Below are positions 2,252 through 31,195 of a stretch of DNA of 33,375 nucleotides, piece by piece. Below the pieces are notes generated by a model, which saw only the letters and a list, made by a program, of their open reading frames with translations, was not told the origin of the DNA and did not search any database. The first letter of the stretch is position 1. The number at the start of each line of letters is the position of its first letter. The translations under genes were made by a program, and so were the position numbers. Source of the DNA: a virus; the IMG/VR virus record IMGVR_UViG_3300048625_000195, positions 1 to 33,375 of that record; one strand, given 5' to 3'.

Positions 2252-4186
2252 TTATGCTACTTTGAAGATATCTCCACCTGTGTTAACAAGCCTTCCATCA
2301 TCAACTAGCTTATCAATCTGCTTGCTGATAGTTCCTTTGTTATTCTTGCCTGTCTGCTTCATACGAGGATTCCAGATTTCAGACTTCCTGAATGTTTCCA
2401 ACTCAAGAGAAACTATGAATTCATACAATGAGTCAAGTTCAATCTGAGGATCAGATGTGAAATTCTGTGAACGACTGCTTTTCACAGGCTCTTCATACTT
2501 TTCATACTCTGCTGTTGGCTCATTCATAGTTTCATATGAACTGTTCATACCTTCATACTGTGAATTCATATCTGTGAATTTCGTACCAGCTTCAGTAGTC
2601 TTGTAGTTTTCATACGCCTGACCTAGAGCTGCGGCTGTTGTCTTATCCATAGGAGTACGGAACTGAGCACCTTCAATAACAGCCTGCTCTAGAAGCCTAC
2701 GATCAATCTTATCTGTCTTTAGCTGGTTACCTAGCATGTCCTGGTTTAATCCACGAATGTCTAGGTAGAAGGTTCCAGGGAAATTATCCTTTAATGTGTG
2801 AGGCATAGCAGGAGTCTCACCGAATACAATCTTAGTATCGCCTGAGTTCTTCAGACCGAAACACAATGTTCCACCAAGGTTGTAACGAAGTGAAGTAGGA
2901 ATACAGTCGTGAGTAATTCTCTGAAGACTGTAGACAACTACAATTCCAGCAGAACGAGACTCAGCAATAATCCTAGTTACTCTAGCTAGGTCTGACTTAG
3001 AGAATGTGTCCTTATCCATAAGTCTTGCTGCTTCTTCGATATGAAGGATTAGCAAGTTAAGTCCACAACCAGGAGCCCAATTTTCAAGGTCCATATTTGC
3101 TAGCCAAGTTGAACGAGCCTTAATCGCACGCTCTACGCTTTCAAACATAGCCATGCTTTCTTCTGGTCCATTAGCGAACCATGAAATACCTGAAAGCAAA
3201 GGCTTAACAGTCTGAGTACCCTTAGCTAGGTCAGCATAAAGGACAGATACTTCCTTACGGTTCAATACAGATCCGTAAACTGACTGCCATCCGTAAGACT
3301 TACCTGAACCACTCATTCCAGCAGTTAAGTAATGCTGAGAAGATCCACCATTCTTACCACCAAGATAAAGCTGAGGACGAGAACCAATATCATAAGTAGC
3401 AAATTCAATAGGTTCTGCAATGCTAGTTCCTGGCTTGAATGGTCCTGACCAAACTACAGGATTAGCGAAAGGCAGGTCATCAAAGATATCTACATAAACT
3501 GTAGTAGGATCATCGCTGTTTCCCCATACACGAATCCTTGATACAGCTACTCCGAACATCTGAGCTAGTTTATCTGTAGCATTCTGGAAATCCTTCAGAG
3601 TAACACCTAACTTAGGCTTGATCCTTACTCGCTTTCCTTCAGCGCCAGGAATAGGACCAGCACCCATAGGGATTGTAGTATCTCCTAAACCAATCTCACC
3701 GTAAGGATTAACCTGCTGTGCTGGTTCTGGATGCTGGAAGTTCTTGAAGCTCCATCTACGTCCCATCCAAGTAAATGCAATAAGCCCTGCACCTAGAATG
3801 AATAGTCCTAGACTTACCTGGCTGAACATCCATTCAAGCGGCTGATCGTTTAAAGCAATGATCATCCAGATAACACCTAATGCTGTGCTTACTGTAGGAT
3901 GGAATCTGATAAGAACTTCATTTCCCTGTTCACCTCTACGCTTGTAGAACTTGTAGATGAATAAACAAGCAATAGCACCACAAACAGCTAATCCCCAAGT
4001 CCAGAATTGTGTAGGTGGTAAGTTACCGAAGAAATGATAATTGAACCACATAATAATTCTCATCAGTGCAACAAATCCAAATACGACTGCTGAACCTTGA
4101 GCCATCATAATGTAAGGCTTGTTATCGTTGTAAACCATTTCAACTGTGTCATTAGCAAAGTTGATGTTTCTTGTGTTGTCTGCCAT
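2252..4186 (-). CDS. FtsK/SpoIIIE/TraB-like membrane DNA translocase
   Basis: The 644-aa protein is a predicted hexameric double-stranded DNA pump of the FtsK/TraB type. Four hydrophobic segments lie near residues 25-48, 60-80, 98-112 and 124-141. The motor carries Walker A (GMSGSGKS, about 290-297) and a Walker B-like strand ending I-E-E (about 380-385), with Glu where Asp is usual. A polar linker (about 525-580) leads to a C-terminal winged-helix-like domain (about 583-644), the position used for DNA sequence recognition in FtsK gamma and TraB. A strong ribosome site (AAAGGAG) precedes ATG 4186. The gene appears monocistronic, with its own terminator. The linker codons contain many TATGAA hexamers matching the array at 1581-1880. 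Streptomyces TraB moves plasmid DNA between mycelial cells; the analogous role here is inference. Confidence 0.9.
   Translation of the reverse strand: MADNTRNINFANDTVEMVYNDNKPYIMMAQGSAVVFGFVALMRIIMWFNYHFFGNLPPTQFWTWGLAVCGAIACLFIYKFYKRRGEQGNEVLIRFHPTVSTALGVIWMIIALNDQPLEWMFSQVSLGLFILGAGLIAFTWMGRRWSFKNFQHPEPAQQVNPYGEIGLGDTTIPMGAGPIPGAEGKRVRIKPKLGVTLKDFQNATDKLAQMFGVAVSRIRVWGNSDDPTTVYVDIFDDLPFANPVVWSGPFKPGTSIAEPIEFATYDIGSRPQLYLGGKNGGSSQHYLTAGMSGSGKSYGWQSVYGSVLNRKEVSVLYADLAKGTQTVKPLLSGISWFANGPEESMAMFESVERAIKARSTWLANMDLENWAPGCGLNLLILHIEEAARLMDKDTFSKSDLARVTRIIAESRSAGIVVVYSLQRITHDCIPTSLRYNLGGTLCFGLKNSGDTKIVFGETPAMPHTLKDNFPGTFYLDIRGLNQDMLGNQLKTDKIDRRLLEQAVIEGAQFRTPMDKTTAAALGQAYENYKTTEAGTKFTDMNSQYEGMNSSYETMNEPTAEYEKYEEPVKSSRSQNFTSDPQIELDSLYEFIVSLELETFRKSEIWNPRMKQTGKNNKGTISKQIDKLVDDGRLVNTGGDIFKVA
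2358..2614 (-). repeat. TATGAA hexamers embedded in the translocase gene
   Basis: On the plus strand TTCATA starts at 2358, 2420, 2492, 2501, 2523, 2531, 2544, 2552, 2565 and 2609, and TATGAA at 2414 and 2535. From 2523 to 2565 the steps alternate 8 and 13, giving a 21-bp period. In protein this is a heptad MNSxYEx. The hexamer arises in two codon registers (xxT-ATG-AAy for Met-Asn and TAT-GAA for Tyr-Glu), so the protein repeat alone does not explain it. Confidence 0.85.
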
Positions 4187-4328
4187 CGTTCTTTCTCCTT
4201 TGGTCTCTTGTCCTTTTCTCGACTTCTTAAGCCGATAACCTTATTATCGGTTTGGTATGACCAAGAATCCGTCAAATACCCAAACTTTTATTAATTGTAA
4301 CCTAAATGTAACATAAGGATGGTTGATT
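4187..4328. promoter_or_regulatory. Divergent promoter region with CCGATAA palindrome
   Basis: This gap separates the translocase (minus) from the zinc-finger/winged-helix gene (plus) and must hold both promoters. It contains the hairpin CCGATAA (4232-4238)/TTATCGG (4244-4250). On the minus strand a TTGACG at about 4280 is a possible -35, but no well-spaced -10 is clear. The layout suits autoregulation by the 4329 product. Confidence 0.5.
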
Positions 4329-4757
4329 ATGGCGATTATGAAGTATTGCGCACCTTGCAGAGAGGATAGACCTATCTCTGAATTCAACAAACATAAGAAA
4401 ACTTATGATGGATTAACAGGAGTATGCAAAACCTGCTATCAGAAAAGATACGGAAGGAAATCAATTCCTCAAAGAGACTTACCAGCTTCAGTTAAAGATC
4501 CACTAGATCGTAAGTTCTCTCGCCATAGCAATGCTATTAAATTCCTAGAAAAGATGTTACTAATTTATGGCTATGAAACTTATGTTGTTGACAAGACTAT
4601 CAAGATGATCGCTGAAGATTTAGACATGCCAGAGAGAACTACCTACAGATATCTTTACATACTTAAGGATATGGGACTGCTTCGTAGAACTTACTGCGAT
4701 AACAAAGATAGGTCTAAAGGCTACAAGTGGTGGATCACTATCAACAAGCCAAGTTAA
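4329..4757 (+). CDS. Zinc-finger plus winged-helix DNA-binding protein
   Basis: The 142-aa protein has an N-terminal zinc-binding module with Cys pairs at 7/10 and 33/36 (CAPC and CKTC). A helical winged-helix-like half follows (about residues 70-142) that ends in aromatic and basic residues. I chose ATG 4329 because AAGGA lies 9 nt upstream; a TTG two codons earlier is less likely. It is transcribed divergently from the translocase and points at the 3' end of the collagen-like gene, with a 30-bp dispersed element in the 34-bp gap. It is one of only three plus-strand genes. A repressor, copy-control or site-binding role for the dispersed repeats is plausible, and it is the best candidate for an immunity regulator, but no family match proves it. 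Confidence 0.75.
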   Translation: MAIMKYCAPCREDRPISEFNKHKKTYDGLTGVCKTCYQKRYGRKSIPQRDLPASVKDPLDRKFSRHSNAIKFLEKMLLIYGYETYVVDKTIKMIAEDLDMPERTTYRYLYILKDMGLLRRTYCDNKDRSKGYKWWITINKPS

Positions 4758-30263: not shown

Positions 30264-30325
30264 TTTCTTAGTCCTTTACTTTGGTCAGGATAGGGGAGGA
30301 CTTATTGACGTTGCCTCCAAATTAC

Positions 30326-31195
30326 TTACTGCTTACGTGCTGCTGAGAAATGTTTCTGTACTGTTAGCTTGTCAGTACCAATCCATTCAGCTACCTGCTC
30401 TGGATTGTCGTAACCCATTCCAAAAGCTTCAAAAGCCTTGCCTCTTACTGATGTAGCTGTAAATGTAGGAGTAGCCTGGAATCCAAACTTAAATTCTTCC
30501 TTCGCCTCAACTACAGGAGTCGCTAGTGGCTCTGAGATTGTCTCTGACTGCATAGCTGGTGCTAGCTGAGGAAGTGGCTTAGGCTTCTCAATTTTATTCT
30601 TAGGAGCCTTCTCAGGCTGTCCTAGAGTTGCATCAGCCTTAATAACAGCCTGCTCAATTTCTCCGTAAACCGGAAGTTCATGCTGTGCTCTTGCTAGGTT
30701 AGTCTTTACTGACTTGCTCCACATCTTAAAGCTCTTGATAGGAAACCTTACCGCTGTCATCTTGCCTAGAACTGGATTACGGTTAACCATTCTATTCTGT
30801 TCTCTACGAGCCTTCTTGCTCTGGCGCTTTAGGTAAAAGTGGAACAGGATACCTGCTGCTAGTGGGAACAAAGCCATTACGTAAGGTAGAGGATAAGTCA
30901 TACCTTCCATGCTTGCATGTAGCCAGTTAAGGTACATGCTAGTTCCTACAACAAGATAGGTAATCATTTCTAGTCCTGTAGCTGATTCATCAGAAAGAGC
31001 TACTTCTACTGCTTCATGTCCTAGCCATAGAGCTAGAGCATCAAATACAATTCCTCCTGCTAGTGCGATTGCTAGGTGTGCTCCTGCAAGTAGCAGCAGT
31101 GCTGAAATTCCCCAGAAGCTTACTGCGATTGCACAGATTAGAATGAAGAAGAAAGCTGCATTCTTCATTGTTAGACCTTTAAAGGGATTCTTCAT
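30326..31195 (-). CDS. DUF2637/Spd-like membrane protein
   Basis: The 289-aa protein has four hydrophobic segments in its first 125 residues (about 12-30, 33-55, 76-92 and 100-122). The F-D-A-L-A-L-W-L and W-L-H-A-S-M-E-G-M-T-Y-P-L-P-Y-V-M-A-L-F-P positions match the DUF2637 pattern of Streptomyces plasmid and ICE proteins. A basic loop (R-R-E-Q-N-R) and a Pro/Lys-rich linker follow. A C-terminal helix-turn-helix-like segment (N-P-E-Q-V-A-E-W-I-G-T-D-K-L-T-V) ends the protein. Spd proteins help spread conjugating plasmids with TraB. The presence of both types here is suggestive. AAAGGA precedes ATG 31195. Family assignment is moderate. Confidence 0.6.
   Translation of the reverse strand: MKNPFKGLTMKNAAFFFILICAIAVSFWGISALLLLAGAHLAIALAGGIVFDALALWLGHEAVEVALSDESATGLEMITYLVVGTSMYLNWLHASMEGMTYPLPYVMALFPLAAGILFHFYLKRQSKKARREQNRMVNRNPVLGKMTAVRFPIKSFKMWSKSVKTNLARAQHELPVYGEIEQAVIKADATLGQPEKAPKNKIEKPKPLPQLAPAMQSETISEPLATPVVEAKEEFKFGFQATPTFTATSVRGKAFEAFGMGYDNPEQVAEWIGTDKLTVQKHFSAARKQ

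Follow-up and report, generated by a model that had tools for sequence, protein, structure and literature searches.

Actinomycete integrative and conjugative elements (AICEs) transfer double-stranded DNA by means of a TraB-type protein; they integrate and are not known to carry virion genes. The records of the Streptomyces plasmid-phages pCQ3 and pCQ4 hold traA, traB and a capsid gene, and that of pCQ4 also holds portal and terminase genes. Plasmid-phages are described in a passage of PMC4170104 as propagating and conjugating as episomes while also forming infective particles, and a passage of PMC3583192 cites Zhong 2010 for the transfer and the phage cycle of pZL12. Based on the plasmid-phages in print and the gene content of pCQ3/pCQ4, the combination of traB with virion genes is therefore already known. 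Here we describe the 33,375-base virus record IMGVR_UViG_3300048625_000195 (the window, meaning this whole stretch of DNA), whose genes are mostly on the minus strand and include a gene for a TraB-family DNA translocase (traB, 2252-4186), a gene for a DUF2637 protein (30326-31195) and a tailed-virion module. We consider it fairly likely, judging from its sequence, that the window carries a virus-borne TraB/clt module for the transfer of double-stranded DNA, clt being the TraB loading site.

Like the Streptomyces plasmid-phages (pZL12, and pCQ3/pCQ4 by gene content), the window combines a TraB-type gene with tailed-virion genes on a single replicon. In pCQ3/pCQ4, traA-traB are located 3 to 11 kb upstream of the terminase and capsid genes. 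These two replicons have a size of 85 kb, a guanine-plus-cytosine (GC) content of 69% at the locus, and matches to integrase and ParA-type proteins, whereas the window has 33 kb, 42% GC and neither match. The TraB of the window is 26% identical to that of pCQ3/pCQ4, and its portal protein matches PF05133, while pCQ3/pCQ4 match neither of the portal families tested. Moreover, pCQ3/pCQ4 have traA, whereas no traA, which was not sought by profile, was noticed beside traB in the window. The window lineage is far removed from the Streptomyces plasmid-phages. With AICEs the window has the TraB-type motor in common, but it gave no tyrosine integrase match and has virion genes.

The TraB/clt systems of pJV1, pSN22, pWTY27 and pSVH1 share with the window a membrane FtsK-like motor, direct repeats at the 3' end of traB, and a divergent regulator gene, for which the window holds a candidate. 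The window system differs from those of the Streptomyces plasmids in being located on a virus, in having another repeat sequence, and in having a divergent gene that is not of the GntR type. In the open-licence literature, we did not find described a compact low-GC genome of this kind, the divergent TraB lineage, viral candidate clt sites, the DUF2637-traB neighbourhood, or TraB in virulent-looking viruses.

The motor belongs to the TraB family

The intact open reading frame (ORF) at 2252-4186 (minus strand) encodes a 644-aa protein whose assignment as a TraB-family DNA translocase is based on NCBIfam, alignment, phylogeny, hydropathy, a structural model and Foldseek. Its residues 91-585 matched NCBIfam plasmid_TraB with an E value of 2.5e-71, while the match to Pfam FtsK_SpoIIIE (0.071) was below the cut-off. 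In PHROGs, the motor matched family 24831 at 3.4e-51 and the FtsK-like family 1358 at 1.8e-20. The Walker A motif is GMSGSGKS, and the motor motifs are conserved. An AlphaFold2 model with a mean predicted local distance difference test (pLDDT) score of 78.5 contained helices at residues 13-53, 59-82, 90-114 and 123-148, a motor domain at ca. 180-533, and a small winged-helix-like C-terminal domain at 584-643, joined to the motor by a linker of low confidence. The hydropathy peaks fell in the region of the N-terminal helices. The TraB-type domain plan, comprising N-terminal membrane helices, a Walker-motif motor and a C-terminal winged helix, is thus present in the model, with the winged helix being a prediction; a C-terminal winged helix is described for pSVH1 TraB in a passage of PMC3583192. 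Foldseek searches with the model gave an FtsK motor (2ius, 1.3e-14) as the best match, and the conjugation protein TcpA matched at 3.5e-14. Secretion ATPases (EccC/EssC) gave only weaker Foldseek matches, and identity as a packaging motor was rejected because the large terminase subunit is encoded by a separate gene.

With the TraB alignment (A1) as query, 57 loci were detected, 30 of which (L013-L042) were taken as TraB; from the 27 weaker loci (L043-L069), 10 were used in the ORF step and 9 in the tree, the short fragment L049 being dropped. The tree of 53 rows was built by a quick method with Shimodaira-Hasegawa-like approximate likelihood ratio test (SH-aLRT) support, and long branches and odd composition were flagged in it, including for the window row. 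The window motor was placed within a 38-row TraB clade, consisting of the window, 30 viral TraBs and 7 plasmid TraBs, with a support of 100, and was paired with the TraB of the viral contig L013, also with a support of 100. Outside this clade branched 14 phage FtsK-like proteins (Gilgamesh, Bobb, BSP18, LittleE, phi18-2 and nine contigs) and host FtsK, which was represented by E. coli FtsK alone, minus its first 700 residues, and by no actinobacterial chromosomal FtsK. A preliminary description of this DNA had suggested that an FtsK/TraB-like motor of plasmid-transfer type is encoded here and had proposed profile searches and phylogeny as checks; both place the protein, as judged from its sequence, in the TraB family rather than with FtsK or the sampled phage FtsK-like proteins.

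When plasmids were searched by tblastn, the motor matched 81 records, the best among the matches listed being pCQ3 (1e-40), pRL1 (2e-40) and pCQ4 (2e-38). No match was obtained among 50,697 phage records at an E value of 1e-5. At an E value of 0.01, the L013 TraB matched 1 phage record and the TraB of the viral contig L017 matched 12. Scans of viral contigs for close relatives using the window TraB or DUF2637 protein alone gave no relative.

The protein could instead be a TraB homologue for housekeeping within a single cell, keeping or segregating the genome at closing septa or resolving genomes in the manner of FtsK/SpoIIIE, with no transfer involved. FtsK-like proteins are common in phages (pCQ4 TraB matches 84 phage records, 69 of Bacillus and 9 of Mycobacterium), the motor fold is FtsK-like, and a profile search found no ParA or partition genes in the window. 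However, this role seems unlikely, since the sampled phage FtsK-like proteins, from 5 named phages and 9 contigs, all fall outside the TraB clade, the repeats at the 3' end of traB are a trait of plasmid transfer loci, and the DUF2637 neighbour recurs, as described below.

Direct repeats at the 3' end of traB form a candidate clt

According to a passage of PMC3583192, the pWTY27 clt comprises 16 bp of tra and an adjoining 159 bp, with four TGACACC repeats footprinted by Tra, and the pJV1 clt consists of nine 9-bp repeats. In the window, five direct repeats of CCTAAAAC abut the traB stop codon and constitute a candidate clt (2144-2251). The copies are located at 2163, 2175, 2187, 2220 and 2243 (2163-2250), and no others occur in the window. 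They form the densest cluster of an exact 8-mer on the circle (a unit of 33,155 bp; see below), with 5 copies as compared to at most 3 elsewhere in 300-bp scan windows. All 5 copies of CTAAAACC in the window lie within 2144-2251, four on the plus strand and one on the minus strand, and 0 of 100 shuffles reached this number.

At least 4 copies of one 8-mer were found at 17 of 31 traB stops (window included) versus 23 of 663 control stops, a result matched in 0 of 20,000 draws; in this test, the 30 viral loci include several near-copies and so lack independence, and the window, entered as a unit repeated twice, had its own traB among its controls. A single-unit rerun for the window gave 5 copies at the traB stop versus at most 2 at 19 control stops. 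With pJV1 as a positive control, the scan recovered nine CCGCACA at the traB stop, the densest cluster being located there, and in a scan of seven plasmids two (pRL1 and NBC_01508) reached 4 copies near the traB 3' end. The motifs repeated at traB stops of the relatives include CTGACACC, GTGGCACC, GTTGCACC, TTGTCACC and CGGAACAG; CTGACACC, found in several relatives, contains TGACACC, the sequence reported as footprinted in the pWTY27 clt in a passage of PMC3583192. The repeat clusters at the traB 3' end strengthen the interpretation of this locus as a transfer system, with the CCTAAAAC cluster as a clt candidate by sequence. The occurrence of repeats at the 3' end of traB would also provide a simple way of finding transfer sites on viral genomes.

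A second repeat type is found around the candidate clt. In a 7-mer scan of the window, TTCATAC and TATGAAA at 1.5-2.7 kb were the densest, followed by CCTAAAA. TATGAA/TTCATA occurs 53 times in the window (27.2 expected), and 29 of the 53 copies lie around the candidate clt: 17 copies in both orientations in the non-coding stretch 1581-1880, which are candidate replication iterons or a candidate part of clt, and 12 more at 2358-2614 (minus strand) inside traB, in the stretch coding for the linker between the motor and the winged helix. In addition, a terminator-like hairpin (2199-2246, minus strand), identified by a consensus match only, lies directly downstream of traB and overlaps the candidate clt; terminator-like consensus sites numbered 5 in 1-6000 (3.2 expected).

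It is conceivable that these repeats serve in replication as iterons or as operators of a regulator, TraB loading elsewhere or without sequence specificity. A 510-aa ORF adjoins the non-coding stretch in which TATGAA copies are found in either orientation, and a passage of PMC3583192 likewise places the iterons of pWTY27 beside repA, whose product has 522 aa. The overlap of the CCTAAAAC repeats with the terminator-like hairpin would suit operators or iterons, and the product of the divergent gene at 4323-4757 weakly matches replication-initiation families. On the other hand, the CCTAAAAC cluster is immediately adjacent to the traB stop, the position also of the mapped clt sites of pJV1 and, according to a passage of PMC3583192, of pWTY27, and 12 TATGAA copies are inside traB; both functions can share a region. 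We regard an exclusive role as iterons or operators as possible but doubtful, and retain the 3' repeats as candidate TraB loading sites.

A DUF2637 gene recurs beside traB

The intact ORF at 30326-31195 (minus strand) encodes a 289-aa protein that is a candidate partner of TraB on the grounds of its Pfam match, its structural model and its recurrence as a neighbour of traB. It matched Pfam DUF2637 with an E value of 3.1e-9 and 37.4 bits, above the gathering cut-off of 22.8. A weak model (pLDDT 63) contained four long helices in residues 10-132 and a three-helix unit at the C-terminus (250-288), and four membrane helices with a C-terminal helical unit are predicted. Given the unit of 33,155 bp, traB and the DUF2637 gene, which are ca. 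26 kb apart in the window, are ca. 4.2 kb apart on the circle, with the DUF2637 gene downstream of traB on the same strand.

DUF2637 was detected at an E value of 0.01 or lower in 14 of the 30 TraB-bearing virus records, 7 of these 14 matches being under the Pfam cut-off. Among the 14 other virus records holding both genes, the DUF2637 gene was on the same strand as traB, upstream and at most 2.1 kb away in 12, whereas random placement expects 0.3 and 0 of 200,000 placements reached 12. This test counted one place per record and left out the window; in the two exceptions, the DUF2637 gene was on the opposite strand (G006) or downstream of traB (G027). A Streptomyces globisporus plasmid also encodes TraB followed by DUF2637.

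The preliminary description had called this protein DUF2637/Spd-like. The DUF2637 half of that label stands, and the profile match it had asked for was obtained; kinship with Spd (plasmid spread) proteins, which serve intramycelial spread as scored by pock size, was not borne out. Of the genes that follow traB in pJV1 (3) and pSN22 (4), none of the 7 products matched DUF2637, and in this they differ from the neighbour of the window traB. These seven presumably include spd products, although the records name none of them as Spd. A passage of PMC4170104 describes spd genes as highly diverse. By tblastn, the window DUF2637 protein matched only 2 plasmid records as compared to 94 phage records. 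With no match in pJV1/pSN22 and this distribution, the protein is to be regarded as a recurrent neighbour of traB and not as a proven Spd protein, and sequence comparison does not support "Spd-like" beyond an analogy.

Stanwilliamsviridae phages of Streptomyces, such as Coruscant, carry a DUF2637 protein of equal length (290 aa versus 289 aa in the window), which is 30% identical to that of the window over 63% of the length. These phages differ from the window in that none of the phage records matched the window TraB at an E value of 1e-5. The satellite phage MiniFlayer (L007:14392-15336) encodes a membrane protein matching the window DUF2637 protein at an E value of 3e-3.

TraB genes in other viruses

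Of the 30 TraB-bearing virus records, 20 gave a portal match, ten with each of two portal families, one of them just under the cut-off. Viruses with TraB thus differ in their head modules. Some viruses are overlooked by the search for portals, as seen from pCQ4, whose annotated portal gave no match, and many of the virus records are possibly fragments or prophage regions with host flanks. A tyrosine integrase was detected in 13 of the 30 records and ParA over the cut-off in one. The GC content of the locus was 66-73% in 28 of the 30; the remaining two were L013 (46%) and L017 (35%).

L013 appears as a sister virus, with a TraB 42% identical to that of the window and a DUF2637-like gene 1.4 kb from traB. 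The 24.7-kb contig, a fragment, encodes a B12-type ribonucleotide reductase, a clamp loader, a polynucleotide kinase and an RNA ligase, and no portal was found on it. The L017 contig encodes a ribonucleotide reductase, ThyX, a portal protein and a DUF2637-type protein, which scored 20.6 bits, just under the cut-off, and is 39% identical to that of Coruscant. Neither L013 nor L017 gave a match to tyrosine integrase or ParA, and from their gene content both look virulent and not plasmid-like. In L017, intein domains and homing-endonuclease domains interrupt the ribonucleotide reductase gene (2-3847).

The relatives also bear on whether traB is a decaying passenger, acquired from a plasmid by recombination and without a role. 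The gene is accessory: the contig L002, which shares a 30-nt repeat with the window, is without TraB in its 14-kb fragment, and OscarSo, a relative by terminase, has no annotated TraB and gave no tblastn match. However, both ORFs of the window are intact with the motor motifs conserved, and the sister virus L013 retains traB and a DUF2637-like gene, so that a passenger appears very unlikely.

Proposed function of the TraB/clt module

Based on these observations, the following scheme is proposed for the virus-borne transfer module. While the viral genome is resident or replicating in a cell, the C-terminal winged helix of TraB would bind the repeats near 1.6-2.6 kb (clt), and the motor would assemble as a hexamer in the membrane. 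By this hexamer, the viral genome would be pumped in double-stranded form across the envelope or a cross-wall and enter an adjacent cell or hyphal compartment, possibly with the aid of the DUF2637 protein, and traB may be under the control of the divergent helix-turn-helix gene. Terminase-driven packaging into virions would be a separate, second route. The window represents a compact tailed virus, probably of an actinobacterial host, for which two modes of spread may exist, one through virus particles and one through direct transfer from cell to cell. The preliminary description had suggested such dual movement from the co-occurrence of a head-tail module, a TraB-like translocase with four membrane helices, and a four-helix DUF2637 protein. 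This co-occurrence is confirmed by intact ORFs, by matches in PHROGs, Pfam and NCBIfam, and by models. Since the motor was placed in the TraB clade and the DUF2637 profile matched, the earlier interpretation is not refuted, and we regard it as partly supported, with good sequence support for transfer and none for the Spd label.

Several observations weigh against a transfer module. The motor scored 241 bits as compared to the 800-bit cut-off of the NF041214 plasmid_TraB equivalog, which was reached by 10 of 34 records searched, pCQ3 and pCQ4 included; the protein was therefore filed as a divergent TraB-family member and not as a plasmid_TraB equivalog, and the same profile matched in 9 of 14 control genomes, never above the cut-off. 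In end-to-end alignments with seven plasmid TraBs, the identity was only 23-27%. Many phages carry DUF2637 without a window-like TraB, and the DUF2637 match of L013 was weak (14.6 bits, under the cut-off, and none at an E value of 0.001). As for the repeats, 14 of the 31 traB loci had fewer than 4 copies of one 8-mer, and among these was L013, the closest relative, with only 2. In the 47 bp that follow its traB stop, L013 has three imperfect copies resembling TTTCATAGAT, a motif chosen post hoc; the same motif, again post hoc, occurs twice exactly in the repeat region of the window. In pSN22, six CCGCACA and 4 copies of one 8-mer are present at the traB stop, and the densest cluster is elsewhere; pCQ3 and pCQ4 show only 2 copies near the traB 3' end. 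In the window itself, either of two repeat types could be the clt, and one of them may be replication iterons. No clear Rep was found among the scanned window proteins (16 in Pfam, 30 in PHROGs); together with the absence of ParA and tyrosine integrase matches, this leaves a plasmid-like resident state hypothetical. Finally, the model of TraB transfer is weaker if the host is non-mycelial.

A variant of the proposal is that TraB, clt and DUF2637 form a viral movement system, which passes the replicating phage genome through the cross-walls of a mycelial host; we rate this as improbable. By analogy with plant-virus movement proteins, fresh compartments would then be reached during productive infection without lysis or particles. 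It is kept open because the TraB-bearing L013 and L017 look virulent. An infection of mycelium could spread without free particles if phage genomes were moved across cross-walls by TraB, with consequences for phage defence, plaque formation and gene flow. By having two ways out of the cell, such a compact virus would blur the border between phages and conjugative plasmids. The present records extend TraB-bearing viruses from high-GC replicons to three low-GC lineages (the window, L013 and L017), two of them apparently virulent.

Genome unit and virion genes

The end of the window (33156-33375) is a copy of positions 1-220 with 4 mismatches, and the 510-aa ORF continues in frame across the contig ends, from 1-1322 (minus strand) to 33155-32945 (minus strand). 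The genome is therefore circular or terminally redundant, with a unit of 33,155 bp. No function was assigned to the 510-aa ORF: its part 3-1322 gave no Pfam match and the full product gave no plasmid match. The 4 differing bases of 220 in the overlap hint at two co-existing variants.

A chimeric record, or a plasmid misfiled as a virus, would be in keeping with a metagenome contig whose overlapping ends differ. Such an artefact is, however, extremely improbable, given the even GC content (40-45% in all sixteen 2-kb steps), the ORF spanning the junction, and the agreement with a separate contig, which stops short of traB. This contig, L003 (IMG/VR 3300043418), equals window positions 18892-26103 in its positions 1-7212 at 7211 of 7212 bases. 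This virus was therefore assembled at least twice.

On the minus strand, virion genes encode a large terminase subunit (24521-26173; PHROG 38, 3.9e-45; 31-36% identity to its top phage relatives), a portal protein (22919-24454; Pfam SPP1_portal, 2.2e-14; PHROG 104, 1.2e-51), a major capsid protein (20119-21135; PHROG 10, 4.6e-7), a major tail protein (17279-17863; PHROG 117, 5.6e-9), a tape measure protein (13378-16374; PHROG 1272, 2.2e-47), whose top PHROG (1.3e-57) bears the name endolysin, and a collagen-like tail fibre protein (4792-5484; PHROG 5073, 3.9e-26). Further matches in PHROGs and Pfam were to head maturation/morphogenesis (4e-14), Neck1 (3.4e-12) and tail proteins. A complete virion module, as expected of a phage-plasmid, is thus present. 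A tyrosine integrase (PF00589), as expected of an AICE, was not found in the window, serine integrases not having been searched, and neither a tRNA nor an Rfam match was obtained. From its sequence, the window is filed as plasmid-phage-like only. Among the phage matches of the window terminase, that of Mulchroom, a satellite-type phage, was listed first.

The divergent gene and a dispersed repeat

Divergent from traB, the gene at 4323-4757 (plus strand) encodes a 144-aa protein with a Cys-rich N-terminus and a helix-turn-helix, a candidate regulator of traB or replication initiator. It matched PHROG 5558 (7.8e-9) and the endonuclease VII (7.5e-7), DnaD-like (1.1e-3) and replication-initiation (3e-3) families, while the match to Pfam HTH_IclR (7.9e-4) was below the cut-off. 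In pSSPS4.7a, pJV1 and pSN22, GntR genes are divergent from traA. Given the weak matches to endonuclease VII, DnaD-like and replication-initiation families, a regulator is only one reading of this gene, through which traB may be controlled.

A dispersed 30-nt repeat with the inner palindrome GTTAG-N5-CTAAC was present in ten copies on both strands of the window: 38-67, 287-316, 1881-1910, 4761-4790, 10023-10052, 10077-10106, 17200-17229, 22888-22917, 24490-24519 and 27418-27447. Seven of the ten are fully intergenic, with 10% of the genome being intergenic, and two fall within the 510-aa ORF, in frame. The repeat is unexplained, being either operator-like, in which case we would liken it to a 'stoperator', or mobile. 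In the genome collection, the repeat pattern gave 0 matches and no exact 23-nt match was found; the A2 patterns gave 50 stretches, none of them a relative, and the scans yielded no host. L002, a different virus with another head module and DUF2637, holds the repeat core at 1047-1064, 10961-10978 and 13821-13838. One of these core copies is located, like one in the window, between apparent major-tail and chaperone genes.

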